From NCBI GenBank assembly GCA_012862575.1, contig BLSF01000022.1, positions 62,001 to 126,000 of the forward strand: a DNA stretch of 64,000 nt, given 5' to 3'. Source of the DNA: Parietichytrium sp. I65-24A. Taxonomy: Eukaryota > Sar > Bigyra > Thraustochytrida > Thraustochytriidae. The notes under the pieces were generated by a model that made no database searches, was not told where the DNA came from, and saw only the letters and a list, made by a program, of their open reading frames with translations. Each line of letters begins with the position of its first letter. Position 1 is the first letter of the stretch. Shown here in pieces: positions 18,268 through 64,000 of the stretch. Both the position numbers and the translations under genes were made by a program.

Positions 18268-18401
18268 TGCCATTCTTTGCAGATCAAATTAAAAACATTG
18301 GTATCTAGCTCTTATACATGGTAGCCCTTAAATTTGTAAATATCTGCGTCCTTTCCTCTTCAGAGGCGCACATGTCACCCTTGAGGTTTGGCACGAAAAC
18401 C

Positions 18402-19802
18402 TTAGTGAGGCTCGTATTCTGCGATGAGGACCATCATGTAGACACTACAAATGCCAAATGCACATTACAATTAAATACACACGAGTCAGTCAGTCCACAG
18501 CGGTCACATTCAATTGCAGCATCAAACCAAAGAAACTCACCCCACTCCAAAAGAGATCAGTTGTCCGATAATACTGAAAAAGCCCCCGCTATCTTCAAGC
18601 AGCTCCGGGAAGATGGAGCACAGAGAAATATACACAAACCCACCTGCTGTGAACCCAAGCACAAACGTTGGCTGCGAGGTGGAAACCATGATGCCAAAAA
18701 AGCACCCAAGCATTGCTCCGATAGCAGAAACAAATTGTGCCTTGAAAGCTCCCCAGCGCGAAAACCCCTGACTCACAAGAACCGCAAAGTCTCCGATCTC
18801 GTGCGGAATTTCGTGCAACAGCATCGCCACAGTTACTGTGGCACCAAGATTGCGTGAGATTTGAAATGCTGCGGCAATGCTCATTCCGTCTGTGAAGTTA
18901 TGCAGAGCATCGCCCGTCATATTAAGAATTGCGCCTGGTTTGAGTCCGAAAACCAGAGGCACCTCTGCTTCCTCCCCCTCACTTTTGTGTGACGCCCCGT
19001 GCGAATGAGAATGCGAGTGAAAACTACGTCCAGCAAGACGCAACAGCTTCTCCATTGTGAAGAATGACGCAATGCCAGCAAGAACTGCCAGAGGAACCGT
19101 ATTATCATGAACGTGGGCGTGTTCCTCGTGGGAGTGGTCGTGCGCATGCTCCTTGTGGCTATCACCTTTGTGATCGTGATCATGGTCGTGGTGGCTGTGC
19201 TCTTCTTGACCGTGTTTGTGGTCGTGAGAGTGATCATGGCTACCTTTCCCGTCATCATGTTTATGGTCATGCTTGTGGTCGTGGTCATGTTCATGTTCAT
19301 GTTCATGTTCATGCTCGTGTTCATGCTCGTGTTCGTGTTCGTGCTCATGTTCATGGTCGTGTTCATGTTCATGATCATGGTGGCTGTGTTTCCCATGGTC
19401 ATGATCGTGCTGTCCGTGGACATGTTCGTGCTCATGAGAGCCGTGATCGTGCCCGTGGCCCTCCATAGCATGGGGGAGCAAATGCAGGAAGGAGTCTCCA
19501 AGCAACGCTCCCGACGCGAACGCAAGCATCAAATTCAGCACCGGCTTCGGCAGGTCAAACTTCAAAAACAGCAAGATCACCGCATTCCCACCAAACGTGA
19601 TCGCCAGCGTGCCAGCAGCCGCGTCCAGCGAGCTCTGTCGGGACAGTACCTCCATGAGGCCGGGGCTCTCGCACTTCCCCGCACCCAGCCCGCCCATGTC
19701 CTCTGTGGCCGCACACGAGTCAGACACATCCCGTGCGCTTGCGCACACGCTGGCCAGTGCCAGCACGGCGCAGAGTACGGCGCAGAGTCTCTGCAAGCGC
19801 AT
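18402..19802 (-). CDS. SLC39A7: ZIP zinc transporter, SLC39A7/KE4-like, two exons
   Basis: ZIP-family transporter moving zinc into the cytosol, probably from the ER/Golgi as in KE4 proteins. Exon 1 is 19802-18541 and exon 2 is 18444-18402; a 96-base GTGAGT...TAG intron splits a Gly codon and restores the family's last helix (VYMMVLIAEYEPH). The protein has 434 residues. It opens with a signal peptide (MRLQRLCAVLCAVLALASV, cut near Ala-22/Ala-24). A very long His/Asp/Glu loop (about 113-237, HEHEHEH and HDHDH runs) is a probable metal-binding segment. The metal-site helices are HNFTDGMSIA (about 302) and HEIPHEIGDFAVL (about 327), matching the LIV-1/KE4 HExPHExGD signature. Without the small last exon the protein would end abruptly inside the final transmembrane helix. 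Confidence 0.93.
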
Positions 19803-20042
19803 TGTCTATTTTCGCACAAGATGAGCACAGCCTTTCCTCCCTTATCTGACCTCCTTTCCACACGCCCGGTGTCTCGCTGCCTGGCCTCTCGCGGACTGTT
19901 CCTCCCGTCCTCTATGTACTCGCGTACGTTGCCTGTCAAGCAAATCTTGAAGAGATTGGTACTCACTGTCAGTACTCACAGTGTCAGCGCTCACAGAAGC
20001 AAATCTTCGCATGCCTCACATGCCTCTGTCGAAACTTGTATC

Positions 20043-20073
<31 letters not shown>

Positions 20074-20377
20074 CAGAATTCAGAATTCGGATTTCAGATG
20101 AAGTGGCAGTTCTCATTCACTGTCGCAGTGTTCAAGTTGGTGTTTTAGTGGATTGGAGGCAGAACAAGACAAAGCAAGAGTGCGTTTTCATGTGTGCAGA
20201 GCATGCAGAAGCAGACATCACAGTCAGGACAGATTGCAGAATACAGAATACAGAATGGAGAAAATGTGTTGTGGTGTTGGTGGAAAATGCGAAGGTGACA
20301 GATAGTGTGTCACGAGTCGAACGTGGAGTACAAATGAGAACAAAATTAAACTAAACGTGGAGTGAATGTACAGCTCC
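19803..20377. other. Intergenic; AATC repeat
   Basis: Upstream of the zinc transporter and downstream of the ABCC gene. Contains the TCAA repeat (20041-20067) and GAATTC/AGAATACAGAATAC motifs. No gene is recognised. Confidence 0.65.
20041..20067. repeat. TCAA/AATC tetranucleotide repeat
   Basis: Perfect TCAA run. The same motif recurs at about 55242-55261 and in short form elsewhere in the intergenic DNA. Confidence 0.9.
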
Positions 20378-56860: not shown

Positions 56861-57463
56861 ATGAGAGGAGATGCAGTATTCGAGAGCGCCATTGCCGCGG
56901 AGGCATTGGACACGATGAGCAAGGAGGAGATCAAGGAGCAGGCGCACTGGATTTCGCTCAAGGCTGGCATGAAGACGTTTGCGATCACGTCTATGATCTC
57001 GATGCCAGGAACATGGGCAGCCGTCAAGTACTGGCCATGGTTTAGAAAGAGCACCAGCACTTCCAGCAGGGTCGCCACGGCTTTCATGCCTGCGGTGTTT
57101 GCCTTCGCCTTTGTTTCGGAGCAGACCGCCTCCCGGTTGGCACACCCTGAGTCGTACGAGAGGCTGAAGGACCAGAAGGAGATGACCATGAAGGAGAGCT
57201 TTCAGAACATGGTGGACGAGAACCCTACCAAGCTCCTCGCAATGGTTGGCCTTCCTTTGATCGGAGGTATCTTTTACATGAACGGCAAGAACTCGCATCT
57301 CACTTTGTCTCAACGCGTCATGCACACCCGTGTGATGGGCCAGGCTAGTATCCTGGCACTTTTGTCCGGTGTAGCTCTGTACCACTTGCTGACCGACGAC
57401 GATGAGGCTTCCAAGAAGAATCAGCCACACCACAACTACAACAAGTTTCAGGAGGCAAAGTAA
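56861..57463 (+). CDS. HIG1-domain mitochondrial membrane protein
   Basis: Protein of 200 residues with a HIG1 (hypoxia-induced gene 1) domain at its C-terminal part, about 126-176. HIG1 proteins such as Rcf1 and HIGD1/2 bind respiratory complexes III and IV in the inner mitochondrial membrane. The domain shows two hydrophobic helices (LLAMVGLPLIGGIFYM and SILALLSGVALYHLL) around QRVMHTRVMGQ, which is exactly the Q-x3-H/R-x-R-x3-Q motif of the family. The N-terminal half contains two further hydrophobic segments (about 50-67 and 84-98), as in longer Rcf1-like forms. The tail is hydrophilic (HHNYNKFQEAK). The ATG is the first in frame. Single exon. Confidence 0.72.
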   Translation: MRGDAVFESAIAAEALDTMSKEEIKEQAHWISLKAGMKTFAITSMISMPGTWAAVKYWPWFRKSTSTSSRVATAFMPAVFAFAFVSEQTASRLAHPESYERLKDQKEMTMKESFQNMVDENPTKLLAMVGLPLIGGIFYMNGKNSHLTLSQRVMHTRVMGQASILALLSGVALYHLLTDDDEASKKNQPHHNYNKFQEAK

Positions 57464-57731: not shown

Positions 57732-58052
57732 TCACAAGGACGCGAGTCGAGCGCTGCGGCGAACAAGTCTTGGGCTGTGGCGGATCATTCTGACCAGTTT
57801 TTTATGGCTCTTTGCTGCTACAGGCGAAAGCTTTGCGCGAATGCGCAGACTTCTGCGCAGAGACTGCCTCCTCACTCTGCGGCTGCTTGCTGATGAAGAT
57901 GAAGTCGACGATGTGACGCTGCTCGCGCAAGAAGACGATGCCCTTGAGCGTGGCGACAGAGATGGAAGCTCCATGAGCACAGCCTTGCGGAGTGTCACGG
58001 CATGTCGGGTGGACTTTGCTGGAGATGCGCAGGTCATTCTTGTGAAGATCAT
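57732..58052 (-). CDS. Basic Ser/Arg-rich small protein, family copy 1 (inverted)
   Basis: Unknown protein of 106 residues, the only family member on the minus strand. The start is the ATG shared by all five copies (MIFTRMT); the stop is TGA. Layout: N-terminal MIFTRMTCASPAKSTRH, a Leu/Glu patch with LRKAVLMELPS, a run of serines (SSSCASSVTSSTSSSS), then a strongly basic C-terminal third (RRVRRQSLRRSLRIRAKLSP; RLVRRSARLASL). No signal or membrane segment is seen. Composition suits a nuclear or nucleic-acid-binding protein, but this is inference. The end (AAKSHKKLVRMIRHSP) shares the SHKK variant only with copy 5. It differs upstream: the extra bases break the N-terminal extension present in the other copies. 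Confidence 0.55.
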   Translation of the reverse strand: MIFTRMTCASPAKSTRHAVTLRKAVLMELPSLSPRSRASSSCASSVTSSTSSSSASSRRVRRQSLRRSLRIRAKLSPVAAKSHKKLVRMIRHSPRLVRRSARLASL

Positions 58053-58693
58053 CTTTATGTTTGCTGTGATGTGGAAGATGTGATGTGCTGTGCTGCTTTG
58101 TTCGACTTTGAAGGCTGTGTGTTTTGGTTTTGAGTTTGGTAATTGCCAAAATCGTACAAGTCATCGGCGTAGGAAACTGCGAAAGCCTCTTCAATCTCTT
58201 CAATATCAATTCCAATTTCGGTTCAACTTATTCAACTTGTTTCAACTCGTTCAACTTCAACTTCAGCTGACTCTGTTGTTAACTAACTAATGTCACCACG
58301 CGTTCTGCACTGAAGCTACCAAACGCAGCAACTTGATCGCCACTCCTCTCCCATCCATTCACACTTTCTCTCTCCTCACACTTTCACTACCCAAGTCCTT
58401 AACGGTAATTCTAGCGAGACCACTCTCTTCCCATGTTCAGTGAGCCACTAAATGTGGTCGTTGTGGCAACCCATAGCAAGCCATAGAAGGTCATAAAAGC
58501 CATTAGAAGCATTTAGAAGCCGGCTCTCCAGCGCGTTTTGCAAATTGCGTTCTCCAAATCTTGGTGGATTTTTCACATTCATTTTGGAATGCGAGCAATC
58601 ACCAAACTCGAAAGCACCCAAACCCAAAACAAAAAGCCTTCAAAGTCGAACAAAGCAGCACGTCACATCTTCCACATCACAGCAAACATAAAG
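58053..58693. other. Head-to-head spacer between family copies 1 and 2
   Basis: Common 5' flank for two divergent family members. A TTCAAC/GTTCAAC simple repeat lies at about 58220-58265. The array proper begins near 58500, where bases align with spacers between later copies (the CCGGCTCTCCAGCGCGTTTT stretch). Confidence 0.65.
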
Positions 58694-59014
58694 ATGATCT
58701 TTACCAGAATGACCTGCGCATCTCCAGCAAAGTCCACCCGACATGTCGCGACACTCCGCAAGGCTGTGCTCATGGAGCTTCCATCTCCGTCACCACGCTC
58801 AAGGGCATCGTCTTCTTGCGCGAGCAGTGTCACATCGTCGACTTCATCTTCGTCGAAGAGCAGCCGCAAAGTGAGAAGGCAATCTCTGCGCAGAAGTCTG
58901 CGCATTCGCGCGAAGCTTTCGCCTGTAGCAGCCAAGGGCAACAAGAAGATCATTAGAATGATCCGCCACAGCCCAAGACTTGTTCGCCGCAGCGCTCGCC
59001 TCGCACATTTGTAA
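58694..59014 (+). CDS. Basic Ser/Arg-rich small protein, family copy 2
   Basis: Same unknown family, 106 residues, TAA stop. The frame remains open upstream to an ATG at 58589 (MRAITKLESTQTQN...), which would give 141 residues. That extension is shifted in frame relative to copies 3-5 over its first part, so the conserved internal ATG is taken as start. Compared with copy 3 I count about 15 differences in the 106-codon core, about ten of them at third codon positions of this frame. The basic C-terminus reads RKVRRQSLRRSLRIRAKLSP and then KGNKKIIRMIRHSP. Function unknown. Confidence 0.6.
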   Translation: MIFTRMTCASPAKSTRHVATLRKAVLMELPSPSPRSRASSSCASSVTSSTSSSSKSSRKVRRQSLRRSLRIRAKLSPVAAKGNKKIIRMIRHSPRLVRRSARLAHL

Positions 59015-59674
59015 GATATTCAATTCACACCAATTATCACCTCTTGTAAATATTTGAAGATACACCAAATTTCAAATTCATTATGTTTTTCATTCCCAAG
59101 AGCAAAGTTTGCAAAACAAAAGACTATTCACACATTCACACTTGCTCGGTCTCATTTGCAACATTAATCTAACTGACAAAGAGCATTGAACGATAGAGAC
59201 AGCTTAGACTGAGAAGCGTTCATCGAGATTTTGAGTCCAAAGTCTTCCGAGTTCAGAAAGCTGTCCAAAGGTTTCGAAACGCAGTCGCAGCGAGATATTA
59301 AAGCCAGTCTCAAAGTCCCAAACACATTTCGAGACAATTCGCTCCTGACCTGAGTTGCCGAACTCTTACGAGCTCGCTAAGTTGCATGATGTATTGTGGA
59401 AACCCGTAGCAAGTCATAGCGGCCATTGTAAGCCGGCTCTCCAGCGCGTTTTGCAAAAATGCGTTCTCCAAGTCTTGCTCAGTTTCAAGTGAATCACCCT
59501 ACCTTCCGATAGGTTTGGTTTACTGCAGTCACCTCGTGGCTCCACTTAAAGAAGTGAATGGTTTTAGAATGCAAGCAATCACCAAACTCGAAAGCAGCCA
59601 AAACCCAAAACACAAAGCCTTCAAAGTCGAACAAAGCAGCACATCGCATCACAGCTATCACAGCAAACATGAAG

Positions 59675-59995
59675 ATGATCTTCACCAGAATGACCTGCGC
59701 ATCTCCAGCAAAGTCCACTCGCCATGCCGCGACACTCCGCAGGGCTGTGCTCATGGAGCTTCCATCTCTGTCGCCACGCTCAAGGGCTCCATCTTCTTGC
59801 GCGAGCAGCGTCACATCGTCGACTTCATCTTCGTCGAAGAGCAGCCGCAAAGTGAGAAGGCAATCTCTGCGCAGAAGTCTGCGCATTCGCGCAAAGCTTT
59901 CGCCTGTAGCAGCCAAGGGCAACACGAAGATCATCAGAATGATCCGCCACAGCCCAAGACTTGTTCGCCGCAGCGCTCGCCTTGCACATTTGTAA
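59675..59995 (+). CDS. Basic Ser/Arg-rich small protein, family copy 3
   Basis: Same unknown family, 106 residues. An in-frame ATG at 59558 (MVLECKQSPNSK) adds 39 residues, a form shared by copies 3-5. Unique residues include PSS for SSS after LSPRSRA and KGNTKII in the C-terminus. A second ATG frame, shifted by one base (from about 59536), and an antisense frame overlap the same bases; neither keeps conserved ends across copies. Confidence 0.6.
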   Translation: MIFTRMTCASPAKSTRHAATLRRAVLMELPSLSPRSRAPSSCASSVTSSTSSSSKSSRKVRRQSLRRSLRIRAKLSPVAAKGNTKIIRMIRHSPRLVRRSARLAHL

Positions 59996-60650
59996 GATAT
60001 TCAATTCACACCAATTATCACCTCTTGTAAATATTTGAAGATACACCAAATTTCAAATTCATTATGTTTTTCATTCCCAAGAGCAAAGTTTGCAAAACAA
60101 AAGACTATTCACACATTTCACACTTGCTCGGTCTCATTTGCAACACTATGCGACACTGTTCTGTTGTCATTAAACGATAGAGACAGCTTGGACTGAGAGG
60201 TGTTCATCGAGACTTTGAATCCAAAGTCTTCCGAGTTCAGAAAGCTGTCCAAAGTTTCCGAAACGCAGTCGCAGCGAGAAATTAATGCCAGTCTCAAAGT
60301 TCCAAAAACATTTCGAGACAATTCACTCCTGACCTGAGTTGCCGAACTCTTACGAGCTCGCTAAGTTCCATGATGTATTGTAGCAAGTCATAGCAGCCAT
60401 TGTAAGCCGGCTCTCCAGCGCGTTTTGCAAAATGCGTTCTCCAAACCTTGCTCAGTTTCAAGTGAATCACCCTACCTTCCGATAGGTTTGATTTACCGCA
60501 GTCGTGACCTCATGGCTCCGCTTAAAAAAGTGAATGGTTTTAGAATGCAAGCAATCACCAAACTCGAAAGCAGCCAAAAGCCAAAACACAAAGTCTTCAA
60601 AGTCGAACAAAGCAGCACATCGCATCACAGCTATCACAGCAAACATAAAG

Positions 60651-60977
60651 ATGATCTTCACCAGAATGACCAACGCATCTCCAGCAAAGTCCACTCGCCA
60701 TGCCGCGACACTCCGCAGGGCTGTGCTCATGGAGCTTCCATCTCTGTCGCCACGCTCAAGGGCATCGTCTTCTTGCGCGAGCAGCGTCACATCGTCGACT
60801 TCATCTTCATCTTCATCAGCAAGCAGCCGCAGAGTGAGAAGGCAGTCTCTGCGCAGAAGTCTGCGCATTCGTGCAAAGCTTTCGCCTGTAGCAGCCAAGG
60901 GCAACAAGAAGATCATCAAAATGATCCGCCATAGCCCAAGACTTGTTCGCCGCAGCGCTCGCCTCGCACATTTGTAA
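60651..60977 (+). CDS. Basic Ser/Arg-rich small protein, family copy 4
   Basis: Same unknown family, 108 residues; two extra codons in the serine run (SSSSSSASSRRVRR) explain the length and keep the frame. N-terminal extension from the ATG at 60534 possible (147 residues). It reads MTNASPAKS rather than MTCASPAKS, as copy 5 does. Shares SASSRRVRR with inverted copy 1, so the copies look mosaic. Confidence 0.6.
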   Translation: MIFTRMTNASPAKSTRHAATLRRAVLMELPSLSPRSRASSSCASSVTSSTSSSSSSASSRRVRRQSLRRSLRIRAKLSPVAAKGNKKIIKMIRHSPRLVRRSARLAHL

Positions 60978-61643
60978 GATATTCAATTCGCACCAATTAT
61001 CACCTCTTGTAAATATTTGAAGATACACCAAATTTCAAATTCATTATGTTTTCCATTCCCAAGTGCAAAGTTTGCAAAACAAAAGACTATTCACACATTT
61101 CACACTTGCTCGGTCTCATTTGCAACACTATGCGACACTGTTCTCTTGTCATTAAACGATAGAGACAGCTTGGACTGAGAGGTGTTCATCGAGATTTTTG
61201 AGTCCAAAGTCTTCCGAGTTCAGAAAGCTGTCCAAAGTTTCCGAAACGCAGTCGCAGCGAGATATTAATGCCAGTCTCAAAGTCCCAAACACATTTCGAG
61301 ACAATTCGCTCCTGACCTGAGTTGCCGAACTCTTACGAGCTCGCTAAGTTGCATGATGTATTGTGGAAACCCGTAGCAAGTCATGGTGGCCGTTGTAAGC
61401 CGGCTCTCCAGCGCGTTTTGCAAAATGCGTTCTCCAAACCTTGCTCAGTTTCAAGTGAATCACCCTACCTTCCGATAGGTTTGATTTACCGCAGTCGTGA
61501 CCTCATGGCTCCACTTAAAAAAGGGAATGGTTTTAGAATGCAAGCAATCACCAAACTCGAAAGCAGCCAAAAGCCAAGACACAAAGTCTTCAAAGTCGAA
61601 CAAAGCAGCACATCGCATCACAGCTATCACAGCAAACATAAAG

Positions 61644-61964
61644 ATGATCTTCACCAGAATGACCAACGCATCTCCAGCAAAGTCCACTCGCCATGCCGCG
61701 ACACTCCGCAGGGCTGTGCTCATGGAGCTTCCATCTCTGTCGCCACGCTCAAGGGCATCGTCTTCTTGCGCGAGCAGCGTCACATCGTCGACTTCATCTT
61801 CGTCGAAGAGCAGCCGCAAAGTGAGGAGGCAATCTCTGCGCAGAAGTCTGCGCATTCGCGCAAAGCTTTCTCCTGTAGCAGCCAAGAGCCATAAAAAAAT
61901 GGTCAGAATGATCCGCCATAGCCCAAGACTTGTTCGCCGCAGCGCTCGCCTCGCACATTTGTAA
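61644..61964 (+). CDS. Basic Ser/Arg-rich small protein, family copy 5
   Basis: Same unknown family, 106 residues, last of the direct array. Extension from the ATG at 61527 possible. The C-terminus reads AAKSHKKMVRMIRHSP, like copy 1, while the serine run (SSSSKSSRKVRR) is like copies 2 and 3 and the N-terminus (MTNASP) is like copy 4. Its downstream bases leave the repeat just after the stop. Confidence 0.6.
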   Translation: MIFTRMTNASPAKSTRHAATLRRAVLMELPSLSPRSRASSSCASSVTSSTSSSSKSSRKVRRQSLRRSLRIRAKLSPVAAKSHKKMVRMIRHSPRLVRRSARLAHL

Positions 61965-62041
61965 GCTATTCAGCTCGAAATTTGTAGATCTTTGTACATA
62001 ACAGAAAACAAGACGTTTTGATAAATATTACATAATGCGAA

Positions 62042-64000
62042 TCAATTAGAAGCCGAAACAAGTGTAGCAGCAGTACAGCTCAAGCCGAAGAACGATACTT
62101 GTGAAAGGATGGACTCGAGTTGCTCCTTGACGCCATCAAGCTTCCAGTAGTTCAACTGTAAACCCTCGTCCACGCAAACGTTTGCAAAACCTTCTTTTGT
62201 GATGGTGTCATTATCATCATCTCCGTCAGCGTCATTGACCTTATTCCACAACTCAAACACGGCTTCTTCAGAGAGTTGTTGTGCGGGCTGACACGCGGCA
62301 ATGAGCTGCTGGAACTCGTCCAGAGAGAGCACCCCATTTCCGTCGTCATCAAAACGCACAAAAAGGTGCATAAGCATTTTGTGGTCGATGATGAGCTTCT
62401 GGATAAATACCAAAGTAATGGACTCGAGTACCAAATCGACGTCAACCCATAGTACCGTGCCGTCTTCTTTGATGTGCTCAATCTGGCACGCTGGTTGTGC
62501 AATCTTCTCCAAGCGGTCCAGCAAAAGCTGTCGAAGCTGAACAGGCATAGTCCAGCTCCGCTTGATGACAGACTTCTTGAGAGAGGCTTCCTGCTTGCCC
62601 TTCTTCTTGCCCGACTTCTGCTTTTGGCTCGACTCTTGCCGACCTGAGACCTTCGTTCCGTCCCCATCCCCACCAAAATCCGCAAAAGCCTCTTCCAAAT
62701 CATCGACTCGAAAGATCGAGCACGCTGCGTGCATTGCTGCTGCCATCGTAACATATGGATTTGCTCTAGAAAGGGAAGCAGTGACCTGCCCGGGAGTTCC
62801 GTACAAGCGACTGAGAAACTCGGTTGCCAAGTCGCTCAATACGGGAGTGTAGTAAGAGGACTGCAAGACACCACAAATGATGCCAAATGTTTCAATTCTC
62901 TTGCACTCCTTCCACGACATACGGAGTTTTTTGACCAGCCCGTAGGTGTATTCGTTCGATATCTTCTTCAGCCCGTACTTTTGGGTAAAGTAATCCATCA
63001 CGATATTGCATAGCGGCTTGCGCTGCCCAGTCTTGCGCACGTCCTTGTCAAGAAGGATTTTCTTTCCATAGATCTCGCCGATAATGCTAGATGTCAGGCT
63101 CTCCGTACTAATCTCACGAACCTTTTTCTTCGGGGAGCGGAGAAATTTCTCCCAAGGATGCGATTTTTTGAGCCCTTCTTCCCCCCCAGTATTTGAGCCA
63201 GCATGGCGCTTAAACTCCAGACGAGCGATGTAGGGTTTTCCCGTGCTGTACCGCTCAAAGTTTTTGATCTGCGCGCCATGCAAAGCATCTCTATCCTTAC
63301 CCGTCGTCAGGAAAGCTACCAGTCTCTCGGTAAAGTCAGCCTCACTATCTTCGCTGCCACAAACGAGGCCGTCTAAGGTCGTGCTCGTTTCCGCATCAAC
63401 GCTCTGGCCTCGGCTGCGCACGAAGAGCTCACTCCCGCGAAATTCTATTGATGCGGTGGCCAGAGAGCGAAGCCCTTCGTGGGAGGAGGACTCGTCTTCC
63501 GTGGCTTGGCTTGCCGAGTCTTGAACATTGTCATGCTGGAGCGAACTCTCGTCTTGCGCAGCCTCGGCAGTTGCTTCCCCACTCTGACCCTCTGGGACGT
63601 CCGCAGCGTGAATAACAGTGTCCAAACACGCATCAAAAGCGTTCCGAACTTCGGCAGATGTCAAATCGTTCGAGCTCTCTTGGCGAAGCAGCTGGGCAAG
63701 TAGTTTGTGACGCTCTTTCACTGACATGGATTTGAAGAGCAGCCCAAGTACCTGTGCGTCCCCAGCACAGATGTTGAGCATGTTGTCACAGCTCAGCAGT
63801 TGCTGAATTACCTCGGCCCTCGTCTCTGCTTTCGCGCTTTGTATGAAAGACTGTAATATTTGCAATAGCGTTTCCTGGCCTAAATTAGAAATGAAAAAGT
63901 AGAGCTCATCGCTGTTGAGCTCGTTCACCCTCTCACTCAGCTCGAAGGAGCTAAAGCCGGCCAACGTCTTGCGTCTGCGAATCTCCGAGAGCCCTTCAAG
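62042..64000 (-). CDS. EF-hand protein, partial at the window edge
   Basis: Frame of at least 652 residues, open to the window end at 64000; no ATG is seen at its start, so the 5' end lies outside. Function not recognised. Seen: an acidic, Ser/Gln-rich region (about 135-185), a basic region HPWEKFLRSPKKKVRE (about 280), a helical domain (KPLCNIVMDYFTQKYG; EYTYGLVKKLRMSWKECKR) of unknown family, a Lys/Gly-rich linker (about 460-480), then two EF-hands. Loop 1 is canonical (DDDGNGVLSLDE, about 548). Loop 2 (DADGDDDNDTITKEG, about 586) has about three extra residues, so calcium binding by it is doubtful. Probably cytosolic; the EF-hand pair suggests a calcium-dependent regulator. Single exon as far as seen. 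Stop at 62042. Confidence 0.75.
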   Translation of the reverse strand, partial: LEGLSEIRRRKTLAGFSSFELSERVNELNSDELYFFISNLGQETLLQILQSFIQSAKAETRAEVIQQLLSCDNMLNICAGDAQVLGLLFKSMSVKERHKLLAQLLRQESSNDLTSAEVRNAFDACLDTVIHAADVPEGQSGEATAEAAQDESSLQHDNVQDSASQATEDESSSHEGLRSLATASIEFRGSELFVRSRGQSVDAETSTTLDGLVCGSEDSEADFTERLVAFLTTGKDRDALHGAQIKNFERYSTGKPYIARLEFKRHAGSNTGGEEGLKKSHPWEKFLRSPKKKVREISTESLTSSIIGEIYGKKILLDKDVRKTGQRKPLCNIVMDYFTQKYGLKKISNEYTYGLVKKLRMSWKECKRIETFGIICGVLQSSYYTPVLSDLATEFLSRLYGTPGQVTASLSRANPYVTMAAAMHAACSIFRVDDLEEAFADFGGDGDGTKVSGRQESSQKQKSGKKKGKQEASLKKSVIKRSWTMPVQLRQLLLDRLEKIAQPACQIEHIKEDGTVLWVDVDLVLESITLVFIQKLIIDHKMLMHLFVRFDDDGNGVLSLDEFQQLIAACQPAQQLSEEAVFELWNKVNDADGDDDNDTITKEGFANVCVDEGLQLNYWKLDGVKEQLESILSQVSFFGLSCTAATLVSASN

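Follow-up and report, generated by a model that had tools for sequence, protein, structure and literature searches.

A short repeated reading frame in the genome of the thraustochytrid Parietichytrium sp. I65-24A raises two questions: is it a gene and, if so, what might its product do? The copies lie in a window of 64,000 nucleotides (assembly GCA_012862575.1, contig BLSF01000022.1, positions 62,001 to 126,000 of the forward strand), where a first-pass annotation, made from the letters alone, had described five copies of one frame for a small basic protein of no recognised family. Comparisons among the copies indicate that the frame is very probably protein-coding on the sense strand and under purifying selection. 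We tentatively read it as a real coding family of at least six copies whose product may bind nucleic acid in the nucleus, with the array setting its dose and a PUF protein its timing. The functional part of this reading is drawn from sequence and structure models, and we put the whole at a probability of roughly 0.4.

Reading frame, strand and history of the copies

The arrangement described for the window, five frames of 106–108 residues in repeats of about 980 bases, holds: copies 2–5 are direct repeats with spacings of 981, 976 and 993 bases and copy 1 is inverted (Table 1). The count of five is correct for the window and missed a sixth copy elsewhere. Searches of the assembly that contains the window (42.5 Mb in 172 contigs), one with a unit's DNA and one with a single protein copy as the query, matched the five window copies and copy 6 on contig C108 (76849–77169 plus the stop), which brings the family to at least six copies. 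The C half used as the query recovered the same six copies and nothing more at E values up to 10. Six further rows in the whole-protein search (E 0.08–4.6) had stops inside and were not counted as copies. Copy 6 is more diverged, and its position only 34 bases from the end of its contig suggests a second array. Start and stop are kept in all six copies, as had been noted for the five, with TGA as the stop codon in copy 1 and TAA in copies 2–6. Copy 4, longer by 6 bases, had been thought the sole length change; the multiple of three stands, and copy 6 also differs, its frame being 3 bases longer than that of copy 3.

The pattern of substitutions carries the case for coding. In a codon alignment of the six copies, there are 12, 13 and 49 variable columns at codon positions 1, 2 and 3, so that third positions make up 49 of 74 (binomial p about 8e-9, a guide only because the copies are related). 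The pooled ratio of nonsynonymous to synonymous substitution rates (dN/dS) of the sense frame is 0.19, against 1.5–1.7 in four of the five other frames, and each of copies 1–5 compared with copy 6 gives 0.11–0.17. For copies 2 and 3, where a count by hand had given roughly 15 differences, the alignment gives 15 in 321 bases, 10 of them synonymous and 5 not. The sense frame is open in all six copies at up to 15.6% difference. Length changes within it are of 6 and 3 bases; just 5' of the ATG some are not divisible by three, which means that longer upstream frames are not conserved. The synonymous-codon score of the sense frame (0.07–0.14) is at or above that of the reference (0.06, standard deviation (sd) 0.04), which consists of 8 long window frames chosen out of 12 and assumed to be genes. 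With sense-strand purifying selection and conserved ends, the copies qualify as a protein-coding gene family.

The first-pass annotation had rightly cautioned that an antisense frame shares the wobble positions and had proposed dN/dS for both strands. Computed among the six copies, the antisense value is 0.22, close to the 0.19 of the sense frame. One alternative is that function lies with the antisense frame, or with a non-coding RNA made from the repeat, and that the sense frame is a by-product. The antisense frame is open across copies 1–5, and the codon-composition score, in which the sense frame reaches −0.04 to 0.00 against 0.13 (sd 0.07) for the reference frames, is higher for the antisense (0.05–0.09) and the +2 frame (0.03–0.07). 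Among copies 2–4 the 3' spacer differs by 3.7–7.4% and the frame by 4.7–6.9%, so the spacer is no less conserved, as a functional RNA would allow. Against this, copy 6 has a stop within the antisense frame, whose start and end vary between copies. Columns that are synonymous only in the sense frame number 12 against 4 for antisense, and with opportunities counted this is suggestive only (p 0.06, 0.04 and 0.02 at kappa 1, 2 and 4). As to a non-coding RNA, no Rfam match at the gathering score was found in the window, and the 34 bases after the copy 6 stop align with copy 2 mainly over one 15-base stretch. With this stop and the unconserved antisense ends, the matter is largely settled for the sense strand, and we regard an antisense or RNA product as very improbable. 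The earlier argument that conserved ends favour the sense frame thus survives, with the direct synonymous test weak and one codon-composition score pointing the opposite way.

The copies resemble each other in patches. Copies 4 and 5 have no differences in the first 161 codon-alignment columns and 18 afterwards (p 5e-6, with the breakpoint picked after seeing the data), and upstream they show 3 differences in 244 aligned bases. Other pairs are patchy in other ways; between copies 2 and 3, for example, 10 of the 15 differences fall within the first 132 columns. Copy 6 is about equally distant from all others (14.0–15.6%). Such mosaic likeness is what gene conversion gives, and its patchiness points to conversion or unequal exchange among the copies. 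Another reading is that a dispensable orphan frame was recently duplicated in tandem and that conversion has kept the copies alike although they have no important function. The family appears to be known from one genome only, as far as searchable libraries reach, and copy 1 has neither the upstream words nor the PUF-type word described below, both of which fit dispensability. We consider this improbable since the frame is broken in none of the six copies despite differences of up to 15.6%, and dN/dS against copy 6 is 0.11–0.17.

Candidate control elements and the predicted protein

A block of 42–43 bases starts 172–242 bases 5' of the ATG in five of the six copies (copies 2–6); its words are absent at copy 1. 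Within its 25-base core, copy 2 has 1 mismatch. Allowing up to 3 mismatches, a search of the assembly gives four sites for the core, each of which belongs to the basic-protein family, and copy 3 is missing from this count because of one inserted base. Block and ATG stand about 70 bases further apart in copies 3–5 than in copies 2 and 6. The extra bases in copies 3–5 (about 59480–59560, 60453–60535 and 61446–61528) may be inserted sequence or an intron in the leader. A histone-like promoter was considered and rejected: near histone and H1 loci, words from the upstream core turned up only in short form and with one mismatch.

The second shared element is UGUANAUA, the classical Pumilio/PUF element. 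It is found 30, 30, 30, 28 and 25 bases after the stop in copies 2, 3, 4, 5 and 6, and was not found after the stop of copy 1. We took as the sequence mark of a PUF-regulated mRNA the presence of this word in the 3' untranslated region (UTR), with UTR status assumed; five of the six copies have it within 40 bases after the stop. The 3' region of copy 5 is otherwise largely unlike that of copies 2–4, and its word, TGTACATA, differs at the N position. Both strands of the window hold seven such words, of which four belong to the array copies, leaving three in the 119,360 strand-bases outside it. Matches to the PUF repeat number 27 in the genome and lie on six contigs, with scores above the cut-off. 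For comparison we used 12 histone/H1 loci (10 of the 14 PF00125 matches and both PF00538 matches), following frames from an assumed match start and leaving out L007, whose frame ran off the locus. One of the 11 judgeable loci had a PUF word within 300 bases after the stop.

That locus (L014, G000:C7:77621-77935 region) is H2B-like and has TGTACATA 15 bases after the stop; L016, an H2B-like locus with the same ends, is without the word. In the window, TGTAAATA at 18335 (+) lies 67 bases past a 222-codon frame that begins with ATG, a possible further PUF target. TGTAA as a general poly(A) signal was rejected: it occurred twice in the 120-base stretches that follow 12 long window frames, a set with overlapping members that are perhaps not all genes.

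The predicted protein has a mass of 11.7–11.9 kDa, an isoelectric point of 12 and a charge of about +24, with 25–26 Lys and Arg, one acidic residue (Asp or Glu) and 22–25 Ser per molecule. The C-terminal 56 residues of copy 3 contain 18 Lys/Arg and 11 Ser. All six copies have the Ser-Pro sites SPAK, SPRS, SPVA and SPRL, and copy 2 has SPSP too. The AlphaFold2 model of the whole protein has a mean predicted local distance difference test score (pLDDT) of 63.9 and a predicted template modelling score (pTM) of 0.34; pLDDT is below 50 at residues 1–14 and 29–54 and reaches 82–90 in blocks of a helical C half from residue 61 on. Modelled alone, the C half forms three helices (mean pLDDT 80.3, pTM 0.44). 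The Arg/Lys- and Ser-rich C-terminal part that had been described is there, as a strongly basic Ser/Arg C half; the chromatin or RNA-binding role proposed for it is so far a reading of composition plus a predicted helical C half that matched no fold.

Similarity searches gave no recognised family, in agreement with the first-pass annotation. In Pfam the five window copies, scanned with two neighbours, had no match above curated cut-offs, and neither did the C halves of the six copies have a match. NCBIfam gave none for the six copies, and PHROGs, used with no cut-off, gave one family in two of six (best E 0.36). The best match among PDB sequences was an antibody chain (E 0.35), with none in a second search. 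Two short N-terminal peptide patterns each were run against viral contigs of IMG/VR (34 stretches, 0 confirmed) and genomes of GTDB (12 stretches, 0 confirmed), searches so narrow that distant relatives could be missed. With the whole model, Foldseek against the PDB returned a single row, a pre-40S particle chain, and with the C half none. A second structural comparison (VIA) listed two chains for the whole model and none for the C half, with no match, and the C half against BFVD gave three rows at E 8.6 or worse. Open-access papers on gene families and on basic or nuclear proteins of thraustochytrids (PMC12221091 among them) showed nothing of this family in their accessible parts. We call it an orphan relative to Pfam, NCBIfam, PHROGs, PDB, IMG/VR and GTDB, none of which is a eukaryotic genome or proteome library.

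In the reading that we favour, DNA (or RNA) would be contacted by the basic helical C half, and phosphorylation would adjust the flexible N half with its Ser residues and SP sites. Dose would come from the array and transcription from the common upstream block, and the mRNA would be stored or broken down by a PUF protein up to the proper life-cycle stage. Nuclear nucleic-acid binding is our likeliest guess for the product, with chromatin ahead of RNA. Our results bear out that the frame is coding and under selection, that the copies are mosaics and that the two elements are there; the remaining mechanism we infer.

Along with the codon-composition scores and the spacer comparison given above, several observations weigh against this reading. 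The AlphaFold2 input was only six near-identical sequences, and the helical model may reflect nothing beyond composition since a fold match was not found. The PUF-type word is shared by descent among copies 2–4, and probably likewise in copy 6; contig C108 ends right after the copy 6 word, where an assembly overlap could mimic conservation. Outside the array, 3 of 158 half-overlapping AT-rich 100-base stretches hold such a word. There is no chromatin gap to fill, as canonical histones and two linker-histone matches exist elsewhere in the genome, and for the latter reason we dropped the idea that the protein replaces H1.

The first 27 residues are without an acidic residue, which is compatible with a mitochondrial leader. 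This raises the idea of a protein imported into mitochondria, or bound to membranes by its basic helices. The first acidic residue is E28, a low-confidence helix is predicted at 16–28, and several basic helices look amphipathic by eye from the sequence. However, pLDDT is under 50 at residues 1–14 and the basic C half equally resembles nuclear signals, and we think such a location unlikely.

More weight goes to a real basic protein whose target is RNA or the ribosome rather than chromatin (an SR-like, nucleolar or ribosome-associated protein), although we find this rather doubtful too. The best Pfam match of any window copy is SR-25 (PF10500), a splicing-associated family, with copy 4 (E 0.0044, 17.1 bits); four of the five window copies match it weakly (12.4–17.1 bits) and copy 3 does not. 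The pre-40S chain noted above points the same way. Yet 17.1 bits is far from the cut-off of 40 and probably tracks Ser/Arg composition, and the Foldseek row has an E value of 5.3 and a probability of 0.03. SR proteins are defined by long runs of RS dipeptides, and no such run is seen in the sequence.

The boldest version of our preferred nuclear reading is a lineage-specific chromatin-packaging protein of unknown fold, with a flexible SP-bearing N half and a basic three-helix C half. Its dose would come from a conversion-homogenised array and its mRNA would be stored, silenced by PUF, for a specific life stage (a spore or zoospore, for example), a protamine-like switch in a protist; we rate this version as quite improbable. 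Were the product an abundant nuclear factor, it would show a protist lineage inventing its own chromatin- or RNA-binding component under post-transcriptional control. At minimum, this is a family unrecognised by Pfam, NCBIfam and PHROGs with evidence of selection and testable motifs. Tandem orphan genes are common, so the general lesson is modest.

Features of the array and other observations

Table 1. Copies of the basic-protein frame in the window and the sequence elements beside them
Feature	Position	Strand	Remarks
Copy 1, ATG-to-stop frame	57732..58052	−	inverted, 106 aa, stop TGA
Copy 2, ATG-to-stop frame	58694..59014	+	106 aa
Copy 3, ATG-to-stop frame	59675..59995	+	106 aa
Copy 4, ATG-to-stop frame	60651..60977	+	108 aa, longer by 6 bases
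Copy 5, ATG-to-stop frame	61644..61964	+	106 aa
Copy 2, upstream block, GGCTCTCCAGCGCGTTTTGCAAA...CTTG, 42 bases	58522..58563	+	starts 172 bases before ATG
Copy 3, upstream block with one inserted base	59435..59477	+	starts 240 bases before ATG
Copy 4, upstream block	60409..60450	+	starts 242 bases before ATG
Copy 5, upstream block	61402..61443	+	starts 242 bases before ATG
TGTAAATA, PUF-type site, copy 2	59045..59052	+	30 bases after stop
TGTAAATA, copy 3	60026..60033	+	30 bases after stop
TGTAAATA, copy 4	61008..61015	+	30 bases after stop
TGTACATA, copy 5	61993..62000	+	28 bases after stop

Homology to the array fades soon 3' of the copy 5 stop. The array is flanked by a frame with a HIG_1_N domain at 56861–57463 (+), above the Pfam cut-off (E 2e-6), and by a 579-codon frame at 62042–63781 (−) whose EF-hand match (E 2.4e-5) is slightly below its own. 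Adjoining copy 6, an open-ended frame (L005:2-352, −) runs into ECPVCLDAVD and, judged only by eye, resembles the beginning of a RING-type protein.

Two observations lie apart from the family. Between 19255 and 19379 of the window the hexamer TCATGT occurs about 21 times, within a 415-codon frame at 19107–20354 (+) and an opposite 421-codon frame at 18537–19802 (−). A PfaA-type polyunsaturated fatty acid synthase model gave 13 partial matches in the genome, none over the cut-off, in a search that can miss long models. Seven of them, also below the cut-off, fall in a 5583-codon open frame (G000:C66:8562-22499), four at ketosynthase-side model positions 176–516. This frame perhaps encodes a large modular protein resembling polyketide synthases.

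Comparison with known systems

We compared the family with the classes that it most resembles. None of the five window copies matches linker histone H1 (PF00538) or core histones (PF00125) above the Pfam cut-offs; the genome's two PF00538 matches are on contigs C3 and C8, and its 14 PF00125 matches are elsewhere, none on C22 or C108. SPKK-type nuclear basic proteins are defined by repeated S-P-[K/R]-[K/R] motifs. This motif occurs in none of the six copies, as no SP site is followed by two basic residues. For SR-25, membership takes a score of 40 bits or more, which no window copy reaches. As these definitions failed, we file the family in none of the four classes.

H1 tails and SPKK-bearing sperm nuclear basic proteins are, like the family, strongly basic with Ser-Pro near basic residues. 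Unlike them, the family has no H1 or histone-fold match, a Ser-rich middle of low model confidence and a conserved helical C half. SPK(K/R)-rich sperm H2Bs are named in PMC9903204. With SR-25 and other Arg-Ser rich splicing-associated proteins the family shares Ser/Arg-rich low complexity, at a score far below the cut-off.

For the putative control of the mRNA, the closest parallel comes from an oomycete. According to the accessible part of PMC8547697, PuM90, a PUF protein of Pythium ultimum, binds UGUACAUA within the 3' UTR of an mRNA whose level it lowers to facilitate oospore formation. The PuFLP mRNA under PuM90 encodes a flavodoxin-like protein (PMC8547697) and the family a small basic one, and PUF control is putative here; the two are alike in carrying UGUA[A/C]AUA, which in the family copies stands after the stop.

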